A DNA stretch of 33,179 nucleotides from an uncultured bacterium (lineage in GTDB: Bacteria > Bacteroidota > Bacteroidia > Chitinophagales > Chitinophagaceae), in NCBI GenBank assembly GCA_903951405.1, contig CAJBBV010000014.1, positions 1 to 33,179 on the forward strand. The letters run 5' to 3'. Below are positions 4,572-30,355 of this stretch, piece after piece. Made by a program: the position numbers and the translations under genes. Positions within the stretch are counted from its first letter, which is position 1. The number at the start of each line of letters is the position of its first letter. Under the pieces are notes generated by a model that was given only the letters and a program-made list of their open reading frames with translations, was not told the DNA's origin and ran no database searches.

Positions 4572-4594
4572 ACCGATATTATAGGTTTTATTTT
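4570..4594. terminator. Short hairpin between convergent phnW and phnY
   Basis: AAACC (4570-4574) and GGTTT (4584-4588) form a 5-bp stem followed by a T-rich tract in the phnW direction. The stem is weak but well placed between two convergent stop codons. Confidence 0.4.
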
Positions 4595-4596
4595 TA

Positions 4597-6021: not shown

Positions 6022-6104
6022 AATGTATTTTTTAAATCAAACGATGGATATAATTTATAAGATTATTTCAATGTTACGAACTAAAGTCAAAACAACTGAT
6101 TATG

Positions 6105-7349: not shown

Positions 7350-7392
7350 TGAAACTAGGTTTTTTTTAGTCAATTAACGATTTAGAATGGTG

Positions 7393-7400
7393 CAAAAGTA
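7393..7400 (-). promoter_or_regulatory. Candidate -7 element for phnA-phnY
   Basis: On the minus strand this reads TACTTTTG, an exact TAnnTTTG match 43 nt upstream of the phnA ATG. No TTG is found at the expected distance, so only half the promoter is supported. Confidence 0.45.
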
Positions 7401-7517
7401 AGATTCTTATTCCATCTACTTTATGTAAAATTTCATGTGGTATAGAAATTTTTATTTATCCCCAACTCTTTGTTGGTTTGGCCATAATTCCTGTAAAAAA
7501 TGGGTATACTATATTTC

Positions 7518-7548
7518 ATGGATATCCTCGTTTTAAGAGATTATCCAT
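7518..7548. repeat. Interrupted inverted repeat in the phnA/phnZ divergent region
   Basis: ATGGATA (7518-7524) pairs with TATCCAT (7542-7548), and inside it CTC (7527-7529) pairs with GAG (7537-7539) across a 7-nt loop. It lies in the 308-nt space between the divergent phnA and phnZ starts, where a regulator could bind. The rest of that space shows only the half promoter at 7393. Confidence 0.35.
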
Positions 7549-7657
7549 AAATTGCTCCTTTGAATCTATTCTAATTAGTTCTAGAATCTGACCTGAATTA
7601 GCTTGATTTAAACTTGTATTGAATTTTATATAATGTGATTATTAATAAAACCTCGCT

Positions 7658-8233
7658 ATGACCATAAATAGTGCTCAAGTCGCTGTAAATGAAGTATTTG
7701 CTCTTTATGAAAAATTTGGGGCAGAAGATTATATCGGAGAGCCAGTTTCTCAAATAGAACATATGTGCCAAGCCGCTCAATTGGCTGAAGCAGAAGGGTA
7801 TGATGACGAAATTATTCTTGGTGCTTTTTTTCATGATATCGGTCATTTATGTGAACATGTAATGCATGTTGAGCAAATGGATGGATATGGCGTAGTAGAC
7901 CACGAAAAACTTGGAAGAGCGTTTTTGGAGCAAAAAGGGTTTTCCCCGAAAGTTTTAACCCTTGTGGAAAGTCATGTACAAGCAAAACGATTTCTTACAT
8001 TCAAATACCCTGATTATTTTAGTAGGCTCTCTGAAGCAAGTAAAAAGACATTAGAAATGCAAGGAGGAGTGATGAGCGAGACGGAGGCAAAGGCATTTGA
8101 AGCAGACGAGTTTCATGAAATTTATATTAAACTAAGGGAATGGGATGATAGAGCTAAGGAAATAAATTCACCGTTGCCTTCTCTTGAAGTGTATAAAGAA
8201 CGTGCTTTGAATCATCTCTTGAGCCAAGGGTAA
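7658..8233 (+). CDS. phnZ: HD-domain mixed-valent diiron oxygenase PhnZ
   Basis: 191 residues, the usual length. PhnZ cleaves the C-P bond of (R)-2-amino-1-hydroxyethylphosphonate with O2, giving glycine and phosphate. Residues equivalent to the studied enzyme are all present with an offset of one to two: gate residues Tyr25 and Glu28 (YIGEPVSQIEH), iron ligands His35, His59-Asp60 (FFHDIGH), His82 and His106, substrate-binding Lys110, and final ligand Asp163 (REWDDRA). It is divergent from phnA and followed after 96 nt by the carrier gene. Its usual partner, the 2-oxoglutarate hydroxylase PhnY*, is not in this window. The related TmpB, acting on N-trimethylated substrate, is an alternative. 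Confidence 0.88.
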   Translation: MTINSAQVAVNEVFALYEKFGAEDYIGEPVSQIEHMCQAAQLAEAEGYDDEIILGAFFHDIGHLCEHVMHVEQMDGYGVVDHEKLGRAFLEQKGFSPKVLTLVESHVQAKRFLTFKYPDYFSRLSEASKKTLEMQGGVMSETEAKAFEADEFHEIYIKLREWDDRAKEINSPLPSLEVYKERALNHLLSQG

Positions 8234-8329
8234 TTCACTTTAGAATTAAGTGTTCTCACACGTCTTGACTCTGCATATTTATTAAGAAGGAATTTGATAA
8301 GAATTCCAAAATGAAAAGTAAATTTTATT

Positions 8330-9616
8330 ATGCCTGAATTATTGGTTTCCCCAAAGAGATCCTTCTCAAAAGACATATTGCTTCCAGTATACACTGCAGC
8401 TATTGCATTTCTTGCTTATGCATCCGTTTATGCATATCGAAAACCATTTACCGTGGCTACGTTTGATGGGATTAAGTATTGGAATATATCGTATCAAACC
8501 TTACTGATTATCAGCCAAGTGATTGGTTATATGTTTAGTAAATTTTATGGGATTAAGTTTATCTCTGAGTTGAAGCGATTTGGAAGGTGGAAAACAGCCT
8601 TAATTCTCATGAGCATATCATGGGGGGCATTATTTCTATTCGCATTAGTTCCCGCGCCTTATGGTATGATATTCCTATTTATCAATGGGTTTCCGTTAGG
8701 CTTTCTATGGGGAATTGTTTTTAGTTATGTTGAAGGGCGAAGAACAACCGATTTTATTGGTTCTGTTTTAGCTATCAGTTTCATTTTTGCAGGGGGCTTC
8801 ACTAGGTCCGTGGCAAAATGGCTGTTGATAGATATGCATGTTGCAGAAAAGTGGATGCCATTTATGGCCGGTCTTATCTTCGCTTTACCACTAGCTTTAT
8901 TTATTTTCTTACTTGAACGAATACCTAAACCAACAGAAGCTGATATTGAGGAAAGGGCTGAGCGGCTTCCTATGTCAAAGGATGATCGAAAAAAGTTTCT
9001 CAAATTGTTTACTGTAGGAATTTTCGCGGCAACATTCACCTATACTTTACTGAGTATCATGCGCGACATTAGAGATAATTACATGTCAAACATATGGAAT
9101 GAACTTGGATATGGGAAAGACTACTCCATATTTACTAAAACAGAAACTAGGACTTCCGTTGTTATCTTAATTATGATTGGCTTACTTGTGCTAATTAGAA
9201 AAAACATTAGGGCTTTTCGATTTATACATGTTATTATTATTATGGGTTTTCTTTTAGCTGGAATATCCTCATGGATGTATGTCCAACACCAAATCGAAGG
9301 TGGACTTTGGATGCAGCTGGTTAGCTTAGGCCTTTATATGGGCTATATTCCATTTCAGTGTATTTATTTTGAAAGATTGATTGCAACATTTAAGGTCAAG
9401 GGTAACGTAGGTTTTCTTCTTTATATTGCTGATTCATTTGGATACCTAGGAAGTGTATTGGTAATGCTCGGCAAAGAATTCTTTGATGTACACGTTAAAT
9501 GGGCAGACGTATACTCTCATGGTGTAGTAATCGTTTCAATCATCGGGGTATCTACTACAATACTGTCTTTTTTATATTTCAATCATAAATACAAGTTGCT
9601 AAAGTCTGCTTTATGA
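8330..9616 (+). CDS. MFS-type multi-span membrane carrier, candidate phosphonate transporter
   Basis: 428 residues with about 12 predicted membrane helices and an MFS-like two-halves layout. The first half includes AYASVYAYRKPFTVATFDG, a motif resembling organophosphate:phosphate antiporters (GlpT/UhpT/UhpC), and a charged central loop around residues 205-220 separates the halves. I think it belongs to the family called DUF5690 in Pfam, but this is from memory. The stop overlaps the start of the FAD oxidoreductase by four bases (ATGA), so the two are translationally coupled. Sitting between phnZ and a TIGR03364-like gene, it most likely imports an aminophosphonate in place of the usual ABC transporter. 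Confidence 0.75.
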   Translation: MPELLVSPKRSFSKDILLPVYTAAIAFLAYASVYAYRKPFTVATFDGIKYWNISYQTLLIISQVIGYMFSKFYGIKFISELKRFGRWKTALILMSISWGALFLFALVPAPYGMIFLFINGFPLGFLWGIVFSYVEGRRTTDFIGSVLAISFIFAGGFTRSVAKWLLIDMHVAEKWMPFMAGLIFALPLALFIFLLERIPKPTEADIEERAERLPMSKDDRKKFLKLFTVGIFAATFTYTLLSIMRDIRDNYMSNIWNELGYGKDYSIFTKTETRTSVVILIMIGLLVLIRKNIRAFRFIHVIIIMGFLLAGISSWMYVQHQIEGGLWMQLVSLGLYMGYIPFQCIYFERLIATFKVKGNVGFLLYIADSFGYLGSVLVMLGKEFFDVHVKWADVYSHGVVIVSIIGVSTTILSFLYFNHKYKLLKSAL

Positions 9617-10728
9617 TTAAAAAATCAGCCATAGTAATTGGTGCTGGTATAGTTGGGTTGGCTGTTGCTCGTGCCTTCGCGATTCGGGGTTATGCGGTAA
9701 CGGTTATTGAAAGGTCATCTAAGTCTATTGGGGCCTCTGTACGAAATTTTGGAATGGTGCTTCCTATTGCACAGCCAGATGGAATATTGTTTGAACGGGC
9801 AATGAATTCACGTCGTATATGGAAGTCATTATGTGATGATGCGAAAATTTGGTACGACGAAGTAGGCTCATTACAACTGGCCTATGCAGCCGATGAATGG
9901 CAAGTGCTTTCTGAGTTATCTGATATATACAAGCATAGAGGATATCAACTTTTGAATAGTGAGCAAACCTGTTCATTGTCATACCCCATTGTACAACGAA
10001 ATTTGCATGGTAGTCTTTATAGCAAGGATGAGATTATCGTGGATCCTAGAGAAGCTATTTCTAAGATTCCTGAGTTCCTTTTTGAACGGTATGGTGTGCA
10101 GTTTATTTGGAATACTACAGCAACATCAATCACACGCGACACTGTTTTTGCTGGATCAAAATCGTACAGCGCAGATGAGATTTTCGTTTGCTCAGGCTCT
10201 GATTTTGAAACATTATTCCCTGAAGAATTTGCCAATCAAAACATTACCAAGTGTAAGCTTCAGATGATGAGGATGACAACACAGGATGGAAATACTAGAA
10301 TTGGCCCTATGTTGTGCGCAGGATTATCACTCATTAATTATAGCAGTTTTTCAGTGGCTCCTACGCATGCGCAACTAAAGGCTAGGCTTCATCTTGATTT
10401 TCCTGAATATATAAAATGGGGAATCCATGTTATGGTTTCTCAAAATAAAAGCGGAGAATTAACTGTCGGAGATTCTCACGAATATGGGCTAACTCCTGAA
10501 CCATGGGATAAAGCCTTGGTCAATGACTTGATTTTAAAATACCTTAGTGATTTTGCTCAGTTCAAGAGTGAAAAAATTATTGAAACATGGAACGGAGTAT
10601 ATTCAAAAATGAAAAGTGGAGAAACCGAATTGGTCATAAAGCCTGAGGATGGTATCACAATTGTCAATGGACTTGGAGGAGCTGGTATGACATTATCATT
10701 CGGACTCGCTGAAGAAATTCTCTCTTGA
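9613..10728 (+). CDS. FAD-dependent oxidoreductase, TIGR03364-like, phosphonate-associated
   Basis: 371 residues of the DAO (D-amino acid oxidase-like) fold. The N-terminus AIVIGAGIVGLAVARAFA binds the FAD dinucleotide, and ASVRNFGMVLPIAQP (residues about 43-57) is typical of the TIGR03364 group, whose members are repeatedly found in phosphonate loci. The C-terminal NGLGGAGMTLSFGLAEE closes the FAD site. The likely reaction is oxidative removal of the amine or N-methyl group from an aminophosphonate, giving phosphonoacetaldehyde or 2-aminoethylphosphonate, which PhnW, PhnY and PhnA could then use. It is coupled to the carrier gene by a 4-nt overlap. The exact substrate cannot be read from sequence. 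Confidence 0.8.
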   Translation: MIKKSAIVIGAGIVGLAVARAFAIRGYAVTVIERSSKSIGASVRNFGMVLPIAQPDGILFERAMNSRRIWKSLCDDAKIWYDEVGSLQLAYAADEWQVLSELSDIYKHRGYQLLNSEQTCSLSYPIVQRNLHGSLYSKDEIIVDPREAISKIPEFLFERYGVQFIWNTTATSITRDTVFAGSKSYSADEIFVCSGSDFETLFPEEFANQNITKCKLQMMRMTTQDGNTRIGPMLCAGLSLINYSSFSVAPTHAQLKARLHLDFPEYIKWGIHVMVSQNKSGELTVGDSHEYGLTPEPWDKALVNDLILKYLSDFAQFKSEKIIETWNGVYSKMKSGETELVIKPEDGITIVNGLGGAGMTLSFGLAEEILS

Positions 10729-17768: not shown

Positions 17769-19028
17769 TTACACGCTAGCTAATTCTCTTTTCTGTAGGG
17801 TAGTAAAATAGATTGAAGCAATAAAAGAAATGATAAGATATCCTTGAACGAGGTAATTGGCGAATGGAATGTATTTGTCTGCTCCAAACCAATTTCCAGC
17901 GACACTTAAAAAGTATAAGCCAGATAAACATTTTAGTCCTTCCCAAGCATACGCAATAGGATTTTTATCCATCAGTTCAGTCATCGCATAAATGTATATG
18001 AAAATAAATAGGCCATATTGAAACATACCAGGACTTCCAATCGTTGCTATGTTTCCAAATAGATGCCCTACAAAAAACATCAGAAATAGTAATTGAATAA
18101 ACGACCAAGTCCTAAGACTATATGAGCTTATCGGGTCGTATTTTCTGTAATCATATACATTGTCTATTTTGTCAACCGGATAGCTAGAGTCCACATCAGC
18201 TGGTCTCCACCCCGTTGGCATAAACCAAATTCGAAATTTATCAAGAATATTTTTGGTTCTCCATGCATCTCTAATCAATAAATAGAGATGCTGAAAATTT
18301 ATTTTTATGGGGTTCCAGGTGGCTGCAGGTCTTGTGATTCCATATACTGCAGGCACTTCAGCTAACTCTTCTTGAAAAGTTCCAAAGAGCTTGTCCCAAA
18401 TAATAAAGACTTGCGAATAGTTTTTATCGATGTATTCAGGATTTATTGCATGGTGAACTCGGTGGTGTGAGGGGGTAACGATTATTTTTTCAAGGAATCC
18501 CATCTTCTTTATTAGAACCGTATGATACCAGAACTGTATAAATAAATGTAATGGGGCTACTATAGCAATAACTTCTGGCGGCACTCCTAGAATTGCAGCA
18601 GGGACAAGAAAAAAGGTGAAAAGGTGAATAAAAACTGAAATGCTTTGTCGTAAAGCGCAGGCTAAATTGAATTCTTCGCTGCTATGATGAATAATATGTG
18701 CATTCCAAAAAATATTTGTTGTATGTTGAATTCGATGAACCCAGTATCCGGAAAAATCAAGCGCTATAAAGGCTATTATATAAAGATAAATATTATGTTC
18801 AATGTGAATTATGGCAAAGTGGTTTACCATCCATTGGTAACTTAATATACCAATACTCAACCCCAATACATCTTTGGTTACATTAGTTACACCAGAAGTG
18901 AGACTTGATATCATATCCATGCTCCTTACCCATACTCGCCCAGTTTTCCACCCATACCATTTTTCTAATAATACCAATAGTAAAAAAACAGGCATCGCAA
19001 TCAATAATATTCTACCGTAAGTTTCCAT
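17769..19028 (-). CDS. Fatty acid hydroxylase superfamily membrane protein, alkylglycerol monooxygenase-like
   Basis: 419 residues, membrane-bound, with the His clusters of non-haem diiron membrane oxygenases: His98 and His102 (HRIQH), His111/114/115 (HIIHHSSEEFNL) and His188/189/192/193 (HHRVHH). The stretches NAHIIHHSSEEFNLACALRQS and IDKNYSQVFIIWDKLFGTF closely resemble animal alkylglycerol monooxygenase (TMEM195), as do the HLYLLIRDAW region and the extra C-terminal membrane helices. AGMO cleaves ether lipids using tetrahydrobiopterin. Sterol desaturase-type hydroxylases normally lack this C-terminal block. The true substrate is unknown. It is monocistronic and convergent with the SGNH gene. 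Confidence 0.8.
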   Translation of the reverse strand: METYGRILLIAMPVFLLLVLLEKWYGWKTGRVWVRSMDMISSLTSGVTNVTKDVLGLSIGILSYQWMVNHFAIIHIEHNIYLYIIAFIALDFSGYWVHRIQHTTNIFWNAHIIHHSSEEFNLACALRQSISVFIHLFTFFLVPAAILGVPPEVIAIVAPLHLFIQFWYHTVLIKKMGFLEKIIVTPSHHRVHHAINPEYIDKNYSQVFIIWDKLFGTFQEELAEVPAVYGITRPAATWNPIKINFQHLYLLIRDAWRTKNILDKFRIWFMPTGWRPADVDSSYPVDKIDNVYDYRKYDPISSYSLRTWSFIQLLFLMFFVGHLFGNIATIGSPGMFQYGLFIFIYIYAMTELMDKNPIAYAWEGLKCLSGLYFLSVAGNWFGADKYIPFANYLVQGYLIISFIASIYFTTLQKRELASV

Positions 19029-19132: not shown

Positions 19133-20185
19133 ATGGTAACAAATGCATTATCACTCACTGTTAACAAAGTTAAACATAATCTTGGCGGTCATATATTTCA
19201 TTGTATTGACGCTCATACCTGTGGGAATCCAGTAAGGCTAGTTGTATCTGGAGGACCAGCACTTGAAGGGAATAACATGAGTGAAAAGCGCCAACATTTC
19301 TTAAGGGAATATGATTGGATACGAAAAGGATTGATGTTTGAACCAAGAGGGCACGATATGATGAGTGGCAGTATTCTTTACCCCCCGCATGATCCTCAAA
19401 ATGATGTGTCTGTTCTTTTCATTGAAACAAGCGGATGTCTTCCAATGTGTGGGCATGGAACAATCGGTACAATCACAGCAGGTATTGAAAGTGGATTAAT
19501 AGTCCCAAAGAAAGAAGGATTTGTTAATATGGAAGCTCCTGCCGGCTTAATCAAAATTTCATATTCATTAGAAAATGGAAAAGTAAAAAACGTCAGGCTT
19601 GTGAATGTGCCTGCTTATTTAGATCAACAAGACCTCACAGTGAATTGTCCGGATTTAGGGGAATTAAAAGTGGATGTATCATACGGTGGAAATTTTTATG
19701 CCATTGTAGATGTGCAAGAAAATTTTAAAGGCCTTGAACATTATTCAGCTGATCAATTAATTGGGTGGGCTAGGCAATTGAGAAAGAATATCAATGCGCT
19801 TTATCAATTTGTTCATCCAGAAGACCCAACGATTAATTCATGTAGTCATATTTTATGGTGTGGAGCAGTAATCGATACATCTTCTACTGCACGAAATGCC
19901 GTCTTTTATGGCGATAAGGCAATCGATCGATCTCCGTGTGGTACTGGAACAAGTGCTCGGATGGCACAATGGTATGCGAAGGGTATGCTCAAAAAGGGAG
20001 ATGAGTTTATTCATGAAAGTATTATCGGTAGCAAATTTGTTGGCAGAATCGAAGAGGAATCCATCTTCCACGGAAAACCTTCTATGCGTCCATCCATCGA
20101 AGGATGGGCTAAGATTTATGGCCATAATATAATTTCAATTCAATCAGAAGATGATCCATATGCACATGGATTTCAAGTATTATAA
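19133..20185 (+). CDS. 4-hydroxyproline 2-epimerase (proline racemase family)
   Basis: 350 residues. It inverts the alpha carbon of trans-4-hydroxy-L-proline to cis-4-hydroxy-D-proline without a cofactor, using two active-site cysteines. Both are present: Cys106 in [11 protein letters not shown] and Cys269 in [13 protein letters not shown] Cys/Cys pair excludes the dehydratase branch, which has Thr in place of one Cys. Substrate-loop residues are seen in [10 protein letters not shown]. It is the first gene of a six-gene operon; the GH95 gene starts 10 nt downstream. A DadA-like dehydrogenase in the same operon (25732) would oxidise the D-product. Proline racemase activity is the main alternative. 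Confidence 0.87.
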
Positions 20186-20195
20186 AATCGTATAT

Positions 20196-22598
20196 ATGAA
20201 GATTATTTATATTGTCTTAGGATCTCTATTGCAACTTTTCGCAAATGCACAGGATAGCAATGTTATGTGGTATAAAAATCCTGCTCGCCACTTTGAAGAA
20301 GCTTTACCAATCGGAAATGGTAGAATTGGGGCGATGATATATGGGGGCATAAATAAAGAGCGTATTTCACTCAATGAGGCAACACTTTGGTCAGGCCATC
20401 CAGTAGACCCCAACATGAATCCTGAATCAAAAAAGTACTTACCATTAATTAGAGAGGCGTTGTTGCATGAAGATTATCAAGCTGCCGACAGCTTACTCCA
20501 TTTTGTACAGGGAAAATTCTCCGATTCTTACGCTCCATTAGGAAACCTTTACCTTGACTTCAATATACCAAGTGTTTCTAGCTATAAACGAAGTTTGAAT
20601 ATTGCTACGGGTATAGCTAGGGTTGATTTAGTTGCAGATCAAACAACCTATACGCGTGAATATTTTGTTTCCTATCCGCAACAGTTGATGTTTATTCGGT
20701 TGACTTCAAGAGGAAAGAATAAGACTAACGTTACCCTTAAACTGGAAAGTTTATTACGTCATCGAACACAATCTGAATTGCTTGTTGATAGGCCCTTCAT
20801 GAATAGACTTAAAATGAATGGAATAGCCCCATCATTAGCAGAGCCTAATTATAGGGGAGATATGGAAAATGCTGTTCAATTTGATCCAGCTCATGCCATG
20901 AGATTTATGGCTGATGCTCGAGTATTGAAAACTGATGGGCAAATCAATAGTAGTGATTCAAGCCTAACTGTTTCTGGTGCAACTCAAACTATTTTAGCTG
21001 TATCCTTGGCAACAAGTTTTAACGGATTTGATAAGGATCCTGCTCTTGATGGGAAAAATGAGGTGATCATTTGTGAACAGCCTTTTAATCTATTAAAGTC
21101 TGATTCTTTTGAAACATATTTAGCCTCACACATCGCTGATTTTGGACAATATATGAATCGGGTTTCATTCAATATTGGCTCATCACATAATAGCACTTTG
21201 CCTACCGATGAACGGCTAAAAAAATTCACCCTAGGCGAAAAGGATAACTCCTTGATTTCCCTCTATTTTCAATATGGTCGCTACATGATGATTAGTTCAT
21301 CAAGAACATTGGGGGCTCCAATTAATCTTCAAGGTATATGGAACGAGCAGGTTCGTCCACCTTGGAGTAGTAACTATACCATTAATATCAACACAGAGAT
21401 GAATTATTGGCCTGTAGAATCTACTAACCTATCAGAGTTTCATAAGCCCATGTTGAACCTTATTAAAAATATGAGTGTAACAGGTGCTGTTACAGCAAAA
21501 TCATTCTATGGATTAGATGGTTGGGTCGCACATCATAATTCAGACATTTGGGCTATCACAAATCCAGTAGGTGATTTTGGTAATGGTGATCCTGTGTGGG
21601 CTAATTGGACGATGGGCGGAACCTGGATGAGTACCCATCTCTGGGAACATTTTTTATTTACCAGAGATCTTGGGTTTCTTAAAAATGAAGCCTATCCTAT
21701 TATGAAAAGTGCAGCATTATTTTGTTTGCAGTTTCTTGTAAAGGATAATAATGAACAACTGATTACATCTCCTTCAACTTCCCCTGAAAATGGATTTATT
21801 ACCAATAAAGGGTCTCGTGGAAATGTTTTTTATGGAGGAACTGCTGATTTATCAATGATTCGAGAGCTTTTTTCTGATGTACTTGAGGCGCAGAAAATCC
21901 TTAAGCATGACGAGGAATTTGCCTCAAAAATTGAATCTGCATTAGCAAACCTGCATCCATACTCTATTGGCAAAAAAGGAAATCTTCAAGAATGGTATTA
22001 TGATTGGGAAGATCAAGATCCAAACCACAGGCACGTGTCTCATCTGTTTGGATTGTATCCAGGTTCATCCATTACAATGAATAAAAATCCAACACTAGCT
22101 AAGGCGGTGCAAAAATCATTAGAATTGAGAACGAATAATGGAACGGGTTGGTCCATTGCCTGGAAGATTAATTTATGGGCAAGGTTGCAAAATGGTAAAA
22201 TGGCATTGGACGCAATTCGAAAAATTTTATCATATTACCCTGCCGACAAATCTGAAATCGTCATGCATGGTGGAGGAACATATCCTAATTTATTTGACGC
22301 GCATCCGCCGTTTCAAATTGACGGCAATTTTGGAGCAACATCGGGCATTGCAGAAATGTTGATGCAAAGTCATGATGGAGAAATTCTTTTATTACCAGCA
22401 CTTCCTCCTGAGTGGTCAACGGGAAGTGTAACAGGACTAAAAGCACGGGGTAATTTCACCGTTGATATATCGTGGGAGAATGGCAAACTTAAAAAAGCAA
22501 TCATTACACCTTTGGGCGGCATGACTCAAACGATACGTTATCAGCATAAAACCTGGAAGCTTAATTCCATGAAACCATTGGTCATCCAAAATCTTTAG
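20196..22598 (+). CDS. Glycoside hydrolase family 95, alpha-L-fucosidase/galactosidase type
   Basis: 800 residues from the ATG at 20196, chosen because it begins a clean signal peptide ([19 protein letters not shown]); a longer frame would overlap the upstream gene. The N-terminal beta-sandwich opens with [20 protein letters not shown], followed by an (alpha/alpha)6 barrel. Family residues seen are the paired Asn in [12 protein letters not shown], the general-acid Glu in TSPENGF, and the Asp in [14 protein letters not shown]95 enzymes release alpha-1,2-linked L-fucose or L-galactose by inversion, from xyloglucan or arabinogalactan side chains. It is periplasmic or secreted. Spacing of 10 and 26 nt to its neighbours supports one transcript. 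Confidence 0.92.
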
Positions 22599-22624
22599 TA
22601 TTATTACCTCTCAAATTCATCATC

Positions 22625-24589
22625 ATGTTTAAAAAAGTATTTTCTTCTTGCCTTGTTTTCATGATTACCAGCAACCTCAATGCTCAGGGTAGTCATGTAA
22701 AAGTGAATCCAGTAAATTTTTCCAAGGTGACCATTAATGATGAATTTTGGAAACCAAAGATTGATAATGTTGCAACTAAAACGTTGCAAGCATGTATTTA
22801 CCAGACGGAGGAAAAGACTGGACGAATTCGAAATTTTGAAAAAGTGGCAAGGAAGAAAAGAGAGCAACACGAGGGTATCTTTTTTGATGACTCAGATGTA
22901 TTTAAAGCGATTGAAGCAATGGCTTATGCAATCAAAACGAATAAGAGCCATGAATTAATGGTAAAGGCAGATGAATGGATTGACAAGATCGCTGCAGCTC
23001 AACAACCAGATGGGTATTTGAATACGTATTATACGCTTACCGGCCTGGAAAATCGCTGGAAAGATATGAGCATGCATGAAGATTATATTGGTGGACATAT
23101 GATTGAAGCGGCAGTCGCGTATTTTGATGCAACAGGAAAAAGAAAGTTTCTTGATGTGGCTATTCGTTGGGCAGATCATTTTGATTCTGTTTTCGGACAG
23201 GGAAAACGTGATTGGGTAACTGGTCACCAAGAACTTGAGTTGGCGTTGGTTAAATTGTATAAGACTACTCAAAATCTAAAGTACCTCAAGTTGGCAGAGT
23301 GGTTATTATCTGAGAGAGGAAAAGGACTTGGTGTGGGATATACTTGGACGGATTGGAAAGACACAGGCTATGTGCAAGACTTAGTGCCGGTTAAAGATCA
23401 AAAAGAAATCACTGGGCATGCTGTAAGAGCGATGTATCTCTATACGGGTGCTGCTGATGTTGCCACCTATACAGGCGATCAAGATTATATGAAGGCCATG
23501 AGAAGGGTATGGGAAGATGTTGTATATAGAAACATGTACATCACAGGAGGTATTGGTTCAGCTGGTACGAATGAAGGGTTTTCAAGCGACTATGACTTGC
23601 CAAATGAACAAGCATATTGTGAAACTTGTGCATCGGTAGGTATGGTATTTTGGAATCAACGTATGAATAACCTTACAGGAAACGCAGAATATATTGATGT
23701 GCTTGAACGCAGTCTGTATAATGGAGCATTAGATGGACTCTCTTTGAGTGGTGATCGTTTCTTTTATGGCAATCCACTAGCTTCTGATGGTAGGCATTCA
23801 CGTAAGGAGTGGTTCGGAACAGCATGTTGCCCATCAAATATTGCTCGACTGATTGCTTCGCTCGGTAATTTTATTTATGGGTATGCCGATAATAAAATAT
23901 TCGTCAATTTATTTGTAGGTAGTGAGACAAGTTTTTCACTTCCTAAAGGGGAAATGCAATTTAAAATGCAAACTAATTATCCTTGGAGTGGCGATGTAAA
24001 GTGTGTGCTTGGTATGAAGAAAAAAAGTAAAGCAGCAATTGCTTTTCGTATTCCCGGTTGGTCTAAAGGTATTCCTGCTCCAGGAAATTTATATACATTT
24101 TTTGATGATAAGGAAGAAAAACCAACATTGTTGATTAATGGCGTTGAGTCGCACTATACAGATCAGGATGGATATGCTGTAGTGGATCGAGAGTGGAAAG
24201 ATGGCGATATTATTGAATATAAAATTCCTATGACGATAAAAAAAGTGGTAGCACGAAATGAATTGAAGTTGGACAACAACCGTATGGCATTACAGCGTGG
24301 TCCACTCGTATACTGTGTTGAAGGTGCTGATAACAATGGGAAAGCCTGGAATATCGTATCCCCTAAAGAGGCAGTTTATACAACTGAAAATATGGGCATC
24401 GTAAATGAAAATGTAGTTAGTCTTGTTTCAAACTTACCTGTGTTAACGATTTCAGATGATGGATTGTCTGCTAATACACGTAGTCAGAAGGTCAGGGCGA
24501 TTCCATATTATAGTTGGTGTAATAGGGGAAGCAACCCCATGCAAGTGTGGTTGCCAATTTTATTGAGCGATATCAAGATAAATTATTGA
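22625..24589 (+). CDS. Glycoside hydrolase family 127, beta-L-arabinofuranosidase type
   Basis: 654 residues with signal peptide MFKKVFSSCLVFMITSNLNA. An (alpha/alpha)6 barrel covers residues about 30-430, then beta-sandwich domains. The zinc/thiolate catalytic site of HypBA1 is recognisable: Glu333 and Cys335 in YCETCASVG, and Cys401-Cys402 in GTACCPSNIARL, one of which is the nucleophile. The prototype enzyme removes beta-L-arabinofuranose from short arabinans attached to hydroxyproline in extensin. That matches the hydroxyproline epimerase and D-amino-acid dehydrogenase of this operon. Families GH137, GH142 and GH146 have related folds, and GH146 is the main alternative. Confidence 0.88.
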   Translation: MFKKVFSSCLVFMITSNLNAQGSHVKVNPVNFSKVTINDEFWKPKIDNVATKTLQACIYQTEEKTGRIRNFEKVARKKREQHEGIFFDDSDVFKAIEAMAYAIKTNKSHELMVKADEWIDKIAAAQQPDGYLNTYYTLTGLENRWKDMSMHEDYIGGHMIEAAVAYFDATGKRKFLDVAIRWADHFDSVFGQGKRDWVTGHQELELALVKLYKTTQNLKYLKLAEWLLSERGKGLGVGYTWTDWKDTGYVQDLVPVKDQKEITGHAVRAMYLYTGAADVATYTGDQDYMKAMRRVWEDVVYRNMYITGGIGSAGTNEGFSSDYDLPNEQAYCETCASVGMVFWNQRMNNLTGNAEYIDVLERSLYNGALDGLSLSGDRFFYGNPLASDGRHSRKEWFGTACCPSNIARLIASLGNFIYGYADNKIFVNLFVGSETSFSLPKGEMQFKMQTNYPWSGDVKCVLGMKKKSKAAIAFRIPGWSKGIPAPGNLYTFFDDKEEKPTLLINGVESHYTDQDGYAVVDREWKDGDIIEYKIPMTIKKVVARNELKLDNNRMALQRGPLVYCVEGADNNGKAWNIVSPKEAVYTTENMGIVNENVVSLVSNLPVLTISDDGLSANTRSQKVRAIPYYSWCNRGSNPMQVWLPILLSDIKINY

Positions 24590-24627
24590 TAAATCATTTA
24601 TATTTAAGGGGTCATTAAATTAGTTAT

Positions 24628-25683
24628 ATGAAAAAAATAGTAGTTGCTTTTGTTTTTGCTTTGAGTTTGCTTAACTCTACTGCACAAGAATCAAATATTT
24701 GGACGAAAGAAAAGGCAAATCAGTGGGGCGCAATGCAACCATGGTATGTTGGGGGTAATTTTCTTCCAAGTACAGCAATCAATCAGCTAGAGATGTGGCA
24801 AGCCGAAAGCTTTGACCCGGTAACCATTTCAAGAGAATTGGGTTGGGCCTCATCTATTGGCATGAATGTGATGCGTGTATACCTGCATGATATTGCATGG
24901 CAGGTGGACCCTCAAGGGTTTAAAAAAAGGATGAATGATTTTCTTGGCATCGCGGATAAACATAAAATAAAAATATTATTTACTGTATTTGATGATTGCT
25001 GGAATCCTGACGCGTCACCAGGTAAACAACCCGATCCTAAGCCAGGAATCCATAATAGCGGGTGGGTAAGAAGCCCCACTATTTCTGTTCATAATAATCC
25101 ACTAAAATGGCAATACCTTGAAGCATACGTAAAAGATGTTATCTCTTACTTTAAAGACGATAAGCGCATTTTAATGTGGGATCTATACAATGAGCCAGGA
25201 AATAATAATTATGAAAATGGATCAGTGGAGCTGTTGCAACGTGTGTTTGAGTGGGCTTGGTTTGTTAGACCTTCTCAGCCACTTACGTGCGCCGTATGGA
25301 GCCAGAATGAAGTAATCAATCAACTAATCCTACGTAGTTCAGATATAATTACCTTCCATAATTATGACGAGCTTACTGCACTCGAAAAACAAATCTTATC
25401 ATTAAAAAATTATGGTCGTCCTGTGTTGTGCTCTGAATACATGGCAAGAACTCGAAACAGTAAATTTCAAACACATCTTCCCCTATTTAAAAAATACAAT
25501 GTAAGTGCAATCAATTGGGGTTTAGTAGCTGGGAAGAGCAATACTATTTATCAGTGGGACACGCCTATGCCCGATGGCTCAGAACCAGCCGTTTGGTTTC
25601 ATGATGTTTTTAGAAAGGATGGATCTCCTTACAAAAAAGAGGAAGTTGATTTCATTAAGAGCATCACAGCAAGAAAAAAATAA
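24628..25683 (+). CDS. Clan GH-A glycosidase (cellulase/GH5-like)
   Basis: 351 residues with signal peptide MKKIVVAFVFALSLLNSTAQ. A (beta/alpha)8 barrel: GMNVMRVYLHDIAW near strand 2, KILFTVFDDCWNPD, acid/base Glu189 in WDLYNEPGN, and nucleophile Glu270 in PVLCSEYMAR, the standard strand 4 and strand 7 glutamates. Public annotation often labels such proteins 1,4-beta-xylanase or cellulase family, but small single-domain members have varied activity. It sits 38 nt after the GH127 gene and 48 nt before the dehydrogenase. A role on a galactan or arabinoside part of plant glycoprotein is inferred only from the operon. Confidence 0.8.
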   Translation: MKKIVVAFVFALSLLNSTAQESNIWTKEKANQWGAMQPWYVGGNFLPSTAINQLEMWQAESFDPVTISRELGWASSIGMNVMRVYLHDIAWQVDPQGFKKRMNDFLGIADKHKIKILFTVFDDCWNPDASPGKQPDPKPGIHNSGWVRSPTISVHNNPLKWQYLEAYVKDVISYFKDDKRILMWDLYNEPGNNNYENGSVELLQRVFEWAWFVRPSQPLTCAVWSQNEVINQLILRSSDIITFHNYDELTALEKQILSLKNYGRPVLCSEYMARTRNSKFQTHLPLFKKYNVSAINWGLVAGKSNTIYQWDTPMPDGSEPAVWFHDVFRKDGSPYKKEEVDFIKSITARKK

Positions 25684-25731
25684 ATAAACAAATAAATTGA
25701 TTCAGTAATAGTTATTATATAAAATTAGAAC

Positions 25732-26973
25732 ATGTCAAGAGTTGTTGTAGCAGGGGGTGGAATAATTGGATTATGTACAGCATATTATTTAAAGAAATCA
25801 GGTCATGATGTTTTAATTATTGATCGAGGAGATCTAAAATCCGGCACTTCTTTTGGAAATGCAGGATATGTTTCCCCAAGTCATTTTATTCCTCTAGCCT
25901 CGCCAGGAATTATTGCGAAGGGTATGAAATGGATGATGAGCTCGAGTTCCCCATTTTATATTAAACCTCGGTTAAATATCGATTTGATTCGATGGGGGCT
26001 TACGTTTTGGAAAAGATCTAGTAGGTCAACGATGGAACGCAATATCCCTCATCTTGATGCCCTTCTACAGCTTAGTAGAGCTCTTACCTCTGAAATCAGA
26101 GATGAGCTAGGGGATAATTTCAGAATGAAGGAAATAGGCTGTTTAATGTTGTATAAAAGCCTAGCCACTGAACATCACGAAATAGAACTTGCAAAAGAAG
26201 CTGCAGCGTTAAATATTGACACCCAAGTGCTCAACCTTCAGGAACTGCAAGCGATGGAGCCTGAGGTTGAATTGAATGTTAGAGGAGGCGTATTGTATCC
26301 AATCGATTGTCATCTTCATCCTGGAGATTTGATGCAAAGCATTACGGATTACCTCAAAAATAATGGCGTTGAATTTGCATTAAATACTAATATCATAGGT
26401 TTTGAAAAAGGGAATAAAACTATTGTCGGAATAGTAACCGACAAAGGTGTTTTTAGAGGTGATGAATATGTGTTGGCTACGGGATCTTGGTTACCTATCG
26501 TAAGTAAGCAACTTGGAATAGATATACTCATGCAAGCTGGAAAGGGATATAGTATGACATTCGAAAATGTAAAGAAAAACCTTCACTATCCTGCTATACT
26601 TGTAGACGACAGGGTAGCTATGACTCCAATGGGAGCAGATCTTCGAATGGGAGGCACAATGGAAATTAGCGGAATAGGTTCTCCTCTTTTGATGAAAAGA
26701 GTAAAATCGATTTTTGCGGCTGCAAAAAATTATTATCCTAATTTACCAGTTGAGTTTCCGGAGCAGGATAAGATATGGTATGGGCTTCGCCCGTTGAGTC
26801 CAGATGGACTTCCTTACATTGGAAGACATTCGGCCTATAACAACCTCATACTTTCAGGTGGTCATGCCATGCTAGGCATATCGCTTGCTGCTGCAACTGG
26901 TAAACTAGTAGAAGAAATAGTAGGTCATAAAAAAACAAGCATAGATATAGCTGCATTTAATGTTGAACGTTAG
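25732..26973 (+). CDS. DadA-like FAD-dependent D-amino-acid (D-hydroxyproline) dehydrogenase
   Basis: 413 residues of the DAO fold. N-terminal VVVAGGGIIGLCTAYYLKKSG with a following acidic residue (LIIDRGD) binds FAD; GTSFGNAGYVSPSH is typical of the DadA group; IWYGLRPLSPDGLPYIGR and GGHAMLGISLAAATGKL close the FAD site. It probably passes electrons from cis-4-hydroxy-D-proline to the respiratory chain, giving 1-pyrroline-4-hydroxy-2-carboxylate. This is inferred from its operon with a hydroxyproline epimerase. The later enzymes (the deaminase related to dihydrodipicolinate synthase, and the 2-oxoglutarate semialdehyde dehydrogenase) are not in the window. Confidence 0.82.
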   Translation: MSRVVVAGGGIIGLCTAYYLKKSGHDVLIIDRGDLKSGTSFGNAGYVSPSHFIPLASPGIIAKGMKWMMSSSSPFYIKPRLNIDLIRWGLTFWKRSSRSTMERNIPHLDALLQLSRALTSEIRDELGDNFRMKEIGCLMLYKSLATEHHEIELAKEAAALNIDTQVLNLQELQAMEPEVELNVRGGVLYPIDCHLHPGDLMQSITDYLKNNGVEFALNTNIIGFEKGNKTIVGIVTDKGVFRGDEYVLATGSWLPIVSKQLGIDILMQAGKGYSMTFENVKKNLHYPAILVDDRVAMTPMGADLRMGGTMEISGIGSPLLMKRVKSIFAAAKNYYPNLPVEFPEQDKIWYGLRPLSPDGLPYIGRHSAYNNLILSGGHAMLGISLAAATGKLVEEIVGHKKTSIDIAAFNVER

Positions 26974-26989
26974 TCCTAAAATAATCGTT

Positions 26990-27823
26990 ATGAATAAAGT
27001 ATTGAGCATCTTAGTTATCAGTTTACTCAGCCATTCAGTCGCTAATTCGCAAAGCTTAACAATGCTTTGGTCTTCGGATACAACCTTGAAAGTGGCAGAG
27101 TCTGTTTTGGTAGATTCTAAAAATGAGCGATTGTTTGTCGCCAATATTGGCAGCAAGAATCCATGGGGTAGAGAGGGCAAGGGGTCGATTGGCATACTTA
27201 CGCCAAATGGTAAAGTATTAAATCCAACTTGGTTGAAGGGCCTGAATTCTCCTAAAGGTATGGCGTTGATTCAAGACGATATTTTAATTGTTGCAGATGT
27301 AGACTCTATATTGATTATTGATATTCCTCATGCTGCGGTTATTAAAAAAATAGGTATCGAAGGCGCACAACAACTCAATGATATCAGTATTGATAAACGA
27401 GGTGATATATATGTTTCAGATTCTAAGGCTAATAAAATTTATCAGATCTCCAAGTTCAAGCCTGCACTATTAGTAGATGGAATGAAGGGGGCTAATGGAG
27501 TTCTTTATGTTGATAAGACATTATATTTCGTTGATAATGGATCATTTTGTAAGCTAGGTAAGAACAAAGAAATAATCCATATTGCCGATGACTTAGGGGG
27601 CGGTACAGATGGAATAGAGCAAATTGATGAACAGAACTTTCTTGTCTCTTGTTGGTCAGGAACCATTTGGCATGTAAATCTCAATGGGACTAAAAAGCTC
27701 CTTTTAGATACACGCAATGAGCAAATAAACTCTGCTGATATTGGGTACGATAAAAAAAAGAAAATTGTTTATGTTCCTACATTTTGGAAAAATAATGTAG
27801 TGGCTTATCAACTTGTTGATTAG
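26990..27823 (+). CDS. Secreted SMP-30/NHL-like beta-propeller protein
   Basis: 277 residues from the ATG at 26990, which gives a clean signal peptide (MNKVLSILVISLLSHSVANS); an earlier in-frame ATG at 26960 overlaps the previous gene and is less likely. The repeats look like propeller blades: AESVLVDSKNERLFVANIG, LNSPKGMALIQDDILIVADV, LNDISIDKRGDIYVSDSKANKIY, GANGVLYVDKTLYFVDNG. This is the SMP-30/gluconolactonase and NHL type. Catalytic metal residues of a true lactonase cannot be confirmed. It is the last operon gene, 16 nt after the dehydrogenase and immediately before a strong terminator. Its role could be a lactonase or a binding protein. Confidence 0.75.
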   Translation: MNKVLSILVISLLSHSVANSQSLTMLWSSDTTLKVAESVLVDSKNERLFVANIGSKNPWGREGKGSIGILTPNGKVLNPTWLKGLNSPKGMALIQDDILIVADVDSILIIDIPHAAVIKKIGIEGAQQLNDISIDKRGDIYVSDSKANKIYQISKFKPALLVDGMKGANGVLYVDKTLYFVDNGSFCKLGKNKEIIHIADDLGGGTDGIEQIDEQNFLVSCWSGTIWHVNLNGTKKLLLDTRNEQINSADIGYDKKKKIVYVPTFWKNNVVAYQLVD

Positions 27824-27868
27824 TATATAGCGCTGCTGTTTAAATTTTGTAGCAGCGCTATATATTTT
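27824..27868. terminator. Strong hairpin terminator ending the glycosidase operon
   Basis: TATATAGCGCTGCT (27824-27837) pairs with AGCAGCGCTATATA (27851-27864), a 14-bp stem with a 13-nt loop followed by TTTT. It starts directly after the stop codon and lies just before the end of the minus-strand peptidase gene, so it may act in both directions. Confidence 0.85.
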
Positions 27869-27877
27869 AAACACAAA

Positions 27878-30355
27878 TCATTTCATTTGATTTTCTAAAT
27901 AAGTCATCATTTCAGTATTGCCGTTTTCTTTTAATTTCTTTAGTATACTTGGCAATAGAAATTGATTCACATATGGATTGATTTGCTCTTTCAGCGATGT
28001 AGGGAGTTCATTCCTGAAATTGATAATTAGACCAATGGCGTTCTTTATTCTTTCATTACTCTTCATATTCCCAGTCATTTCAGCTATTTGTTGTAATACC
28101 ATTATCTTTTCATTTGACAAGCCTAGTGATGTGAATTTTTCAGCTAGCTTATCATAGATTTCTTCATTTCCGGAGGCGATTAAAATTTTATTAATCGCTG
28201 CATCCAATTCACCCTTCGCGGTTTCATGTGAAAGGTCTATTGCTATTTTCAAGGCAAGGGCAGAGTCGATTTTGCTCAAAGCAGTTAATGCTTTACCAGA
28301 TACGGAATAGGAAGAATCCTTTACATTTTTAAGGTAGATGTCCTTGTAATTAGTATCCAGTGTGTTACCCAAGACCCCAATCATATTTGCTTTTAAAGGT
28401 CTATTTTTTTCTCCAATCAATAAAGAGGCTATAATTGGCTCGAATTCTTTTCTAATGCTTTCTTTTTTTAAGTCAATCTTAGTTAGTGCCAGTTCTCGAA
28501 TCCCGTCGAATGGATCTTTGAGGGCGTCTTTTAGGAGTTGGATTGCTTTCGTGTTATCCATTTTTCTTCCACAAAATTCTACTGACTCTCTTCGATCTAA
28601 ATATTTTCCAGCAAAGTAATATTGATGAAAATAGTTGTCGATGTTTTTATTCTCTTTCTTTTCGCAAAGCAGGACTTTATCTCCGTCGAAATTGATTAGA
28701 TCCGGTTTTGTTAATGAAGAGAATGTAAAGGTGTCAATTGGATTTTCTATCCATATTTGATTTCTTGTTTTTTTGTCTCCTGCGTAAATGTCAATGAATG
28801 ATGGGATGCGAAATATTTTACCTGTTTTTTGTGTTTGCTTGACAATAACTTTTATAGATTTTGATGAATCAACATAGCTATAGGTTATATCAAGCTTAGG
28901 ATGTCCGCTGCCGTAATACCATTGATTGAAAAACCAGCTCAAGTCTCTGCCACTTGTTTCCTCAAGGGCAAGTCTGAGGTGTGCGGCTTCGGCTGATTTA
29001 AATTTATTGGTGGTTAAGTATACATTTAATCCTTTGAAAAAAGCAGAGTCTCCGATGTGATTTCTAAGCATATGTAATATCGCTCCGCCTTTTTGATAGG
29101 ATACTGCATCAAACATATCTTCTCTGTCGGCATAATAAAATCGAACAAGATTCTTTTCCGCATTGTTTCCGCGTAAATAGGATAGGATGTTTGTATGATT
29201 TTCTGCATCACCAGCATCTTTTCCGTATTTGTATTGATTCCAAAGTGTTTGGCTGTAATCTGCAAATGATTCGTTTAGAGTTAGGTTGCTCCAGCTTTCT
29301 GCCGTAACATAATCGCCAAACCATTGGTGGAATAATTCATGGGCAATGGTAGATTCCCATCTATTGCCATCTGTAAGCTCTCTGGCATCTTGTTGAGCAG
29401 ACTCCTGGTGCAACGTAGCGGTCGTATTTTCCATTGCGCCTGATACATAATCTATGCCTGTAATTTGAGCGTATTTATTCCAAGGGTATTCAACTCCTGT
29501 TATTTTAGAAAAGTAACTCATCATTTCAGGTGTGTTCCCAAATATTTTTTTGGCAACTGGGCCAAATTCCGGCTCTACATAATAATTTACCTCTTTGCCT
29601 TTCCAATGGTCTTTTATTATAGCATAGTCACCAACTCCCATGAAGAAAAGGTAAGGCGAGTGCGGGAGTGTCATTTTCCAATAATCTGTCCTTGTCCCAT
29701 TCTTATTAAGCTTTTGGTTCACCAATACACCATTGCTAAGTGTTACATACTTTGTTGGGACAGTCATGTAAATCTCTTGAGTTGTTTTTTGTTGTGTCTG
29801 ATCAATTGTTGGGAACCACACCGAGTTTGATTCGGTTTCACCTTGCGTCCAAATTTGTGTCGGTTTGTTTTTTATCTCACCTTTTGGGTTGATAAAAAAG
29901 AGTCCTTTGACGCCTAGCATCGGGTCTGCGCCAGAGGCTTCTTCATATTCATTTGGCATTGAGGTATAGCTGATGTAAATGGTATACAGCTCTCCTTTAC
30001 TATAAAGCTTAGGGAGTTTGATATTTAGTTGTAGGCCATCATAGGAATAGATCAGTTTACTTGTGGTGTTATTTTTCCCAATAATAGAAACATCATGTAG
30101 CTCCATTCCTTTTGCATCAAGTCTCAAGGAGTCGGTTGGATCGATATGTGGTGTTAACGTAATCCATGCTTTGCCTAATAAATGTGACTTATCGAAATCA
30201 AACTGAACATCGAGTTTAGTATGAACAAGATTATTTGTTCTGGTCGGGGTGTATCTCGGGATTTTTTTCCAAGAACTGTCAATTGGATTGGTATCCTGTC
30301 CGATTACGTTAAGGGCCGTTATCAAAACAATAAGAAGTAAAGAGATATTACGCAT
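27878..30355 (-). CDS. M1-family zinc metallopeptidase (aminopeptidase N-like), secreted
   Basis: 825 residues with signal peptide MRNISLLLIVLITALNVIGQ. An N-terminal beta-saddle domain leads to GAMEN (306-310) for the free amino terminus and the zinc site HELFH (339-343) with the third ligand Glu362 after exactly 18 residues. The C-terminal 250 residues are helical, HEAT-like repeats. It trims N-terminal residues of peptides in the periplasm or at the cell surface. It is monocistronic and faces the glycosidase operon; a role in degrading the same glycoproteins is possible but not shown. Confidence 0.92.
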   Translation of the reverse strand: MRNISLLLIVLITALNVIGQDTNPIDSSWKKIPRYTPTRTNNLVHTKLDVQFDFDKSHLLGKAWITLTPHIDPTDSLRLDAKGMELHDVSIIGKNNTTSKLIYSYDGLQLNIKLPKLYSKGELYTIYISYTSMPNEYEEASGADPMLGVKGLFFINPKGEIKNKPTQIWTQGETESNSVWFPTIDQTQQKTTQEIYMTVPTKYVTLSNGVLVNQKLNKNGTRTDYWKMTLPHSPYLFFMGVGDYAIIKDHWKGKEVNYYVEPEFGPVAKKIFGNTPEMMSYFSKITGVEYPWNKYAQITGIDYVSGAMENTTATLHQESAQQDARELTDGNRWESTIAHELFHQWFGDYVTAESWSNLTLNESFADYSQTLWNQYKYGKDAGDAENHTNILSYLRGNNAEKNLVRFYYADREDMFDAVSYQKGGAILHMLRNHIGDSAFFKGLNVYLTTNKFKSAEAAHLRLALEETSGRDLSWFFNQWYYGSGHPKLDITYSYVDSSKSIKVIVKQTQKTGKIFRIPSFIDIYAGDKKTRNQIWIENPIDTFTFSSLTKPDLINFDGDKVLLCEKKENKNIDNYFHQYYFAGKYLDRRESVEFCGRKMDNTKAIQLLKDALKDPFDGIRELALTKIDLKKESIRKEFEPIIASLLIGEKNRPLKANMIGVLGNTLDTNYKDIYLKNVKDSSYSVSGKALTALSKIDSALALKIAIDLSHETAKGELDAAINKILIASGNEEIYDKLAEKFTSLGLSNEKIMVLQQIAEMTGNMKSNERIKNAIGLIINFRNELPTSLKEQINPYVNQFLLPSILKKLKENGNTEMMTYLENQMK

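Follow-up and report, generated by a model that had tools for sequence, protein, structure and literature searches.

A same-strand run of six genes, located at positions 19133–27823 of the forward strand, was analyzed in a 33,179-nt stretch of DNA (hereafter, the window) from an uncultured Chitinophagaceae bacterium, and its type of locus is probably best explained as a utilisation operon for hydroxyproline-rich glycoproteins (HRGPs) of plant or green-algal walls. The window makes up the entire contig C14 (33,179 bases) of a 2.46-Mb genome in 204 contigs with a completeness of 91%. The genes encode, in order, a 4-hydroxyproline epimerase (HypE), a GH95 protein, a GH127 protein, a clan-A-like TIM-barrel protein, a DAO-family enzyme and an NHL/SMP-30-like protein (Table 1). 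When the open reading frames (ORFs) and the gaps between them were recomputed, with 20196 taken as the start of GH95 and 26990 as that of the last gene, the six genes and the gaps of 10, 26, 38, 48 and 16 nt given by the initial annotation were obtained again.

The association of these glycosidases with HypE was determined in two samples of genomes, namely 149 genomes of the order (20 matched, own genome included, and 15 were kept) and 395 genomes of the phylum (66 more), which gave 81 genomes with an epimerase orthologue, the window's own genome excluded. Three matches of 28–35% identity (G001, G041 and G076) and a 133-residue fragment at the beginning of a contig (G062) were left out. The GH127/GH146 catalytic domain, PF07944, was counted only for matches above 100 bits, and the expected counts follow from the number of genes and the size of the genome. 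Thirteen PF07944 genes, in 10 of the 81 genomes, lay no more than 10 kb from HypE, compared with 0.42 expected (∼31-fold; Poisson P about 2e-15, or 4e-11 when counted by genomes). Six genes in five genomes were found within 5 kb (0.21 expected), and 18 genes in 15 genomes within 25 kb (1.06 expected). Beside proline dehydrogenase, a control that 78 of the 80 searched genomes contain (G111 was left out), no PF07944 gene was observed at 5, 10 or 25 kb; the link thus tracks hydroxyproline catabolism, not proline catabolism. The association of GH127/GH146 genes with HypE is far above chance. Glycosidase islands are abundant in Bacteroidota genomes and most HypE genomes lack the pairing, as would be expected if sugar and amino-acid genes clustered neutrally or by chance, but given the enrichment beside HypE, the empty control, searched in all but one of the 81 genomes, and the recurrence of the pairing at phylogenetically scattered positions, such clustering is highly improbable.

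The layout of related loci was compared at the best 80 of 593 confirmed HypE loci from one pattern scan, all of them Bacteroidota or uncultured records, many titled Chitinophagaceae. Genes were called as greedy longest ORFs of at least 90 residues. Most were named from phmmer hits or from their cluster, and Pfam was applied to 40 representatives; short contigs leave some absences at these loci unsure. PF07944 was present at 21 loci (16 of the 51 loci whose flanks both reach 8 kb or more). The oxidase gene was found downstream of HypE on the same strand at 62 loci, directly in 44 and with intervening genes in 18, and 12 of these 18 hold a GH95, GH127, GH146, GH51 or clan-A gene between the two (Table 1); the other six hold MocA-family, metallo-beta-lactamase-fold, GtaA-like or unclassified genes. 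Locus L036 has the order of the window minus GH127, from the fatty-acid-hydroxylase gene through truA. In a second arrangement, GH127 lies ahead of the deaminase gene and adjoins GH27 (L087, L093, L094, L101, L148 and L149), or is found without GH27 (L150 and L151). In Ilyomonas (L077), SusC/SusD, GH127, GH51 and a Xaa-Pro aminopeptidase-type gene were found, and L153 and L154 combine a deaminase–dehydrogenase–epimerase–oxidase set with amino-acid permease, DPPIV, GH146-type and DUF885 genes.

In a PF07944 tree with 26 rows from the neighbourhood of HypE (Hyp-linked), the Hyp-linked label changed 10 times compared with a shuffled mean of 17.7, and the Hyp-linked genes fell into at least four separated groups: window-type GH127, GH146 (12 Hyp-linked rows and two controls), Mucilaginibacter-type GH127, and L077/L115/L116. 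The window-type group (100*) consists of the window gene, seven Hyp-linked genes and four control genes. This tree omits L060 and L113 (the latter the same record as L051), and its Hyp-linked rows include the opposite-strand genes of L106, L108, L110, L115 and L116, the last of which is 12 kb off. Across the 102 rows of the HypE tree, a label for presence of PF07944 within 10 kb changed 20 times, with gains, losses and missing flanks inseparable; L113, L116 (which shares its record with L062) and L127 were omitted, and nine rows (L148–L156) were chosen for a PF07944 gene near or fairly near, so that 31 of 102 is no frequency. Both trees were built by a quick procedure, and weak branches are numerous in the HypE tree. 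The placement of these sequences supports recruitment of GH127/GH146-type genes beside HypE more than once, and the coupling is more aptly described as modular and recurring among a minority of the Bacteroidota that use hydroxyproline than as something peculiar to the window.

Some further arrangements were noted at these loci. GH146-type proteins of more than 1000 aa occur with DUF885, DUF5695 or SusCD-type genes in or near the hydroxyproline clusters of L153, L154, L155 and L157. A different HypE cassette, with a GH130/GH43-like gene upstream, was found at L035, L037, L046, L049 and L067, with metallo-beta-lactamase-fold or MocA-family genes downstream at some of the five. The GH127 near HypE in L060 (8644–10613) is split over two overlapping ORFs, by a frameshift or an assembly error. 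A BshC bacillithiol synthesis gene (family c6, e.g., L095 12347–13948) is present at 16 of the 80 loci, often after the oxidase, and is probably an unrelated neighbour.

The first gene was confirmed as the hydroxyproline epimerase that had been annotated, with a score of 573.5 against the NCBIfam model for this enzyme (cut-off 376). Its motif residues Cys106 and Cys269, a Cys pair that marks the epimerase, are both in place. Trans-3-hydroxyproline dehydratase was rejected for this gene, which scores below the corresponding cut-offs and has the two motif Cys. The annotated D-amino-acid dehydrogenase passed the Pfam cut-off for the DAO family, but the narrower assignment did not hold: the closest model, PRK00711, gave 264 bits, below its cut-off of 383. 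The gene is proposed, from its family and position, to encode a cis-4-hydroxy-D-proline oxidase. In the established route, 4HypE and DAAO are followed by a DHDPS-family deaminase and an alpha-ketoglutarate semialdehyde dehydrogenase (PMC4113996). Two DHDPS-family genes were found in the window's genome, one of them on contig C178, where the next gene, cut off by the end of the contig, belongs to the aldehyde dehydrogenase family. Homologues of the C178 deaminase and aldehyde dehydrogenase were present at 57 and 51 of the 80 loci, respectively. As such genes adjoin HypE in relatives and sit on C178, the context supports placing the epimerase operon in the 4-hydroxyproline pathway; the NCBIfam equalog models name neither the DHDPS-family nor the ALDH-family genes. 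The aldehyde dehydrogenase at 4597–6021 of the window was rejected as the last pathway enzyme, being over the cut-off for phosphonoacetaldehyde dehydrogenase instead. A homologue of the NHL/SMP-30-like gene occurs at six of the 80 loci.

The GH127 assignment of the third gene was upheld, the family domains being over curated cut-offs. Its catalytic part is 47% identical to GsAbfA, 42% to HypBA1 and 46% to 6ex6, and in the PF07944 tree it falls apart from the solved enzymes. All ten catalytic, zinc and binding residues of HypBA1 were found in it (among them the Zn-Cys3Glu site, nucleophile Cys417 and acid/base Glu322, in HypBA1 numbering), and the set is complete in 18 of 18 other Hyp-linked GH127-type rows. 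The sugar-binding residues in this set were taken from PMC10850190. An aceric acid hydrolase (NF049879) was rejected for this gene (419 bits, cut-off 950). Among 22 PF07944 controls away from HypE, nine have an incomplete set: four are GH146-type, and five belong to a clade without the acid/base Glu. That clade (L132, L133, L142, L144 and L147) has Phe for His142 and Gln for Glu322, retains the zinc site and includes no Hyp-linked row.

The second gene belongs to GH95, as annotated (Pfam cut-off passed), but it lacks the His marker expected of its alleged alpha-1,2-fucosidase type: the position that marks L-galactose or L-fucose specificity is Thr410 (numbered in the ORF from 20151) instead of the AfcA-type His419. 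The residue is His in FucOB and Thr in the best solved relatives 2rdy, 8zbv, 4ufc and 7kmq, of which 8zbv is named an alpha-L-fucosidase. This position separates the L-galactosidase BACOVA_03438 from the fucosidase AfcA, and the marker is described by its authors as unproven (PMC4491172). The catalytic Asn pair is kept, N412 and N414 aligning with Asn372/Asn374 of BACOVA_03438. Alpha-L-galactose and alpha-L-fucose are both possible targets; fucosidase activity is included because the marker is unproven and Thr is found in 8zbv.

For the annotated clan-A glycosidase, only a weak GH2 TIM-barrel match in Pfam (30.2 bits, cut-off 21) and a GH5/GH2-like predicted fold were obtained, and the protein fits no characterised family. 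Residues E189 and E270 are invariant in 20 of 20 homologues. The AlphaFold2 model (pLDDT 74.7; low confidence in residues 298–332) gave GH5/GH2 proteins as the best Foldseek matches, with TM about 0.5 and identities of 10–17%, and a 20-sequence profile gave only weak GH2/GH5 matches against the PDB. A general linkage of this gene with HypE was rejected, as its neighbours vary away from hydroxyproline loci. At two places away from HypE (L020, 10706–12772, and L026, 10654–12729), the clan-A homologue lies directly beside a divergent PF07944 gene.

Alternatively, the glycosidases might be directed at a different wall glycan (rhamnogalacturonan, arabinan or arabinogalactan), with co-regulation as their sole tie to hydroxyproline catabolism, because both substrates are delivered in plant debris. 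The GH95 protein resembles 4ufc, from a xylan locus, and 7kmq, presumably a xyloglucan enzyme, and the two clan-A homologues beside PF07944 genes away from HypE also point this way, as does the activity of GH127/GH146 members on arabinan and arabinogalactan (PMC10850190). We consider this explanation unlikely, given that the families found beside HypE jointly fit Hyp-linked arabinans, Ser-linked galactose and proline-rich peptides, and that no pectin lyase or polygalacturonase family was found among the 40 Pfam-scanned representative neighbours, many neighbours lying outside that scan.

The HRGP reading rests on the linkages of the glycoproteins themselves. Extensins and arabinogalactan proteins had been annotated as containing exactly the parts addressed by the operon, which needs correcting for terminal fucose, a feature characteristic of arabinogalactan proteins more than of extensins. 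The arabinofuranose on Hyp was borne out: extensin carries alpha-galactose on Ser and, on Hyp, beta-arabinofuranose chains with an alpha-arabinofuranose cap (PMC5371791). The GH146 enzymes XeHypBA1 and Bll4HypBA1 cleave Araf-beta1-Hyp, and HypBA1 cleaves beta1,2-linked arabinose (PMC10850190). From these linkages, GH27, GH51, GH127 and GH146 would each have a bond to cut in extensin. DPPIV and Xaa-Pro aminopeptidase suit a proline-rich backbone. The annotated source was retained as HRGPs but not as specifically plant ones, since green-algal walls also carry such glycoproteins. Similar loci in Mucilaginibacter, Pedobacter and Chitinophaga, genera known as soil- or plant-associated, count against the same mechanism having a green-algal wall (Chlamydomonas type) and not a plant wall as its natural substrate, whereas the record names of L039, L040, L061, L075 and L102, read as names only, suggest lakes or ponds. 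Green algae are an equal candidate source because the wall of Chlamydomonas consists mainly of extensin-type glycoproteins (PMC5371791), and HRGP use from algal walls has been proposed for Latescibacteria (PMC4454575). This algal variant, whose probability overlaps with that of the HRGP operon in general, is a serious possibility, though we would not bet on it.

Signal-like N-termini, judged by eye and by hydropathy, were observed in the GH95, GH127, clan-A-like and NHL/SMP-30-like proteins and not in HypE or the DAO-family protein, from which we infer that sugars would come off outside the cytosol, hydroxyproline being used within it. The order and families of the genes, their catalytic residues and the repeated, non-random association are observed, whereas we infer the substrates, export, single transcript and pathway flow. 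For an HRGP utilisation operon, the exported GH127 would take beta-L-arabinofuranose off Hyp-linked arabinans, while the exported GH95 (acting on alpha-L-galactose or alpha-L-fucose) and the clan-A protein would take off other residues, and peptidases encoded elsewhere would release hydroxyproline. Cytosolic HypE would then convert trans-4-hydroxy-L-proline to cis-4-hydroxy-D-proline, which the DAO-family enzyme would oxidise, and the C178 DHDPS-family deaminase and aldehyde dehydrogenase would carry the product to alpha-ketoglutarate.

Several observations weigh against this account. The ten residues indicate catalytic competence, that is, family and site, and not the substrate; they are also complete in 13 of the 22 controls, and since most GH127-type genes away from HypE thus share them, the GH127 match leaves the substrate unfixed. 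Of the 11 genes that share a clade with the window's GH127, four come from places away from HypE. A search of the window's genome (91% complete) gave one PF07944 gene only, and as this sole gene is the GH127, the genome has no GH146. The window operon is without a peptidase, SusCD or transporter gene. In 71 of the 81 HypE genomes, no PF07944 gene lies within 10 kb of HypE; at the 80 best loci, GH95 was found in only two, the DPPIV family in six and the Xaa-Pro aminopeptidase type in five, and complete sets are a minority. Clan-A homologues occur in 13 further genomes of the order sample, of which three have a HypE match and none has it nearby. Taken together, the proposed coupling of glycan removal to amino-acid use was supported in part, by the pathway context, the GH127/GH146 enrichment and the repeated recruitment, and not by the GH95 His marker, the clan-A family or a plant-only source.

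The annotated extent of the operon, 19133–27868, was correct at its start; coding stops at 27823, and the annotated end also covers a hairpin. Its fold has a minimum free energy of −23.9 kcal/mol over 27818–27880 (z −5.33 compared with 200 shuffles), and it is a probable terminator between the operon and the convergent, downstream M1 peptidase gene. By pattern scan, which cannot report hairpins with an 11-nt loop such as this one, 11 terminator-like sites were found, none of them within the intergenic gaps of the operon. Promoter-like sites numbered 25 compared with a chance expectation of 32.7. One of them, at 25697–25725, lies inside the 48-nt gap preceding the oxidase gene, so a second transcription start may be present there. 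A homologue of the divergent fatty-acid-hydroxylase-family gene neighbours HypE at 25 of the 80 loci. Elsewhere in the window, a likely 2-aminoethylphosphonate catabolic cluster (3462–10728) contains a class V aminotransferase, the phosphonoacetaldehyde dehydrogenase, a type I phosphodiesterase family gene, DUF5690 and an HpnW-type FAD oxidoreductase (over cut-off).

Table 1. Features of the operon region in the window, and glycosidase genes interposed between HypE and the oxidase gene at related loci.
Feature	Position or loci	Strand	Evidence
Fatty-acid-hydroxylase-family gene, divergent, upstream of HypE	17769–19028	−	Pfam FA_hydroxylase
4-Hydroxyproline 2-epimerase (HypE), proposed cytosolic	19133–20185	+	Pfam Pro_racemase 414.6 bits; NCBIfam PRK13971.1
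GH95 exo-glycosidase, signal-like N-terminus (ORF open from 20151 too)	20196–22598	+	Pfam GH95 catalytic domain 590.8 bits
GH127-type (beta-L-arabinofuranosidase family), signal-like N-terminus	22625–24589	+	Pfam GH127 catalytic, middle and C domains over cut-offs
Clan GH-A-like TIM-barrel protein, no characterised family, signal-like N-terminus	24628–25683	+	Weak GH2 TIM-barrel match
FAD-dependent D-amino-acid oxidase/dehydrogenase family	25732–26973	+	Pfam DAO 206.2 bits
NHL/SMP-30-like protein, signal-like N-terminus (ORF open from 26960 too)	26990–27823	+	Pfam NHL 26.3 bits
Probable terminator hairpin, 17 pairs (two G-U), 11-nt loop	27822–27866	+	RNA fold
Interposed GH95	L033, L036		
Interposed GH127	L039, L051, L056, L075, L083, L102		
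Interposed GH146	L039, L041, L051		
Interposed GH51	L039		
Interposed clan-A gene	L036, L039, L054, L070, L075, L083, L088, L102		

Extensins and the glycoproteins of algal walls occur widely, and their backbone is protected by arabinosylated hydroxyproline. A genomic signature tying sugar removal to hydroxyproline catabolism would flag bacteria able to draw both carbon and nitrogen from the entire glycoprotein, would supply sets of co-acting enzymes and would give the uncharacterised clan-A-like hydrolase a testable context. A bolder proposal, which we regard as rather doubtful, is that there is a Bacteroidota class of HRGP-wall utilisation loci, independently assembled several times and co-encoding glycosidases, prolyl peptidases and hydroxyproline enzymes, in which the clan-A protein would be a new glycosidase family cutting at or near the Hyp linkage.

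The coupling had been annotated as not previously described, and in agreement with this, no paper joining hydroxyproline catabolism with HRGP glycosidases was found by full-text searches of the open-access literature, in which subscription papers are mostly missing and the results of the wider searches were judged by title and the opening of the abstract. The 4-hydroxyproline clusters of PMC4113996 share the four enzyme families with the window's genome, in which the epimerase and oxidase are in one operon and the other two are on C178; unlike those clusters, the window has glycosidases between epimerase and oxidase, and the terms ‘glycosid’ and ‘arabinofuranos’ were absent from the main text of that paper in a term search. 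The beta-arabino-oligosaccharide cluster of Bifidobacterium longum (HypBA1 GH127, HypBA2 GH121 and BLLJ_0213) has the same GH127 catalytic, zinc and binding residues as the window, but in the parts of its descriptions cited here (PMC10850190 and PMC5928203) it is presented for sugar use, without a hydroxyproline catabolic gene; GH121 was covered here by the Pfam scan of the window ORFs. GH146-type genes, related to BT0349, XeHypBA1 and Bll4HypBA1, occupy the slot of GH127 in related loci (the L051 protein gave 492 bits against the BT0349 entry 5opj), whereas in the window that slot is taken by GH127, and GH146 is absent. The nearest precedent is the HRGP proposal for Latescibacteria (PMC4454575), in which GH127 and GH95 were read as acting on HRGPs of algal walls; the cited part of that work is a genome-wide inventory and, unlike the window, describes no operon or hydroxyproline catabolism. 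With Bacteroidota polysaccharide utilisation loci, the operon has in common the clustered exported exo-glycosidases, and some related loci have SusC/SusD. The window differs from them in having no SusC/SusD family (0 among the 20 ORFs Pfam-scanned of 27 listed; largest ORF 825 aa) and in that its sugar enzymes are joined with cytosolic amino-acid catabolism.

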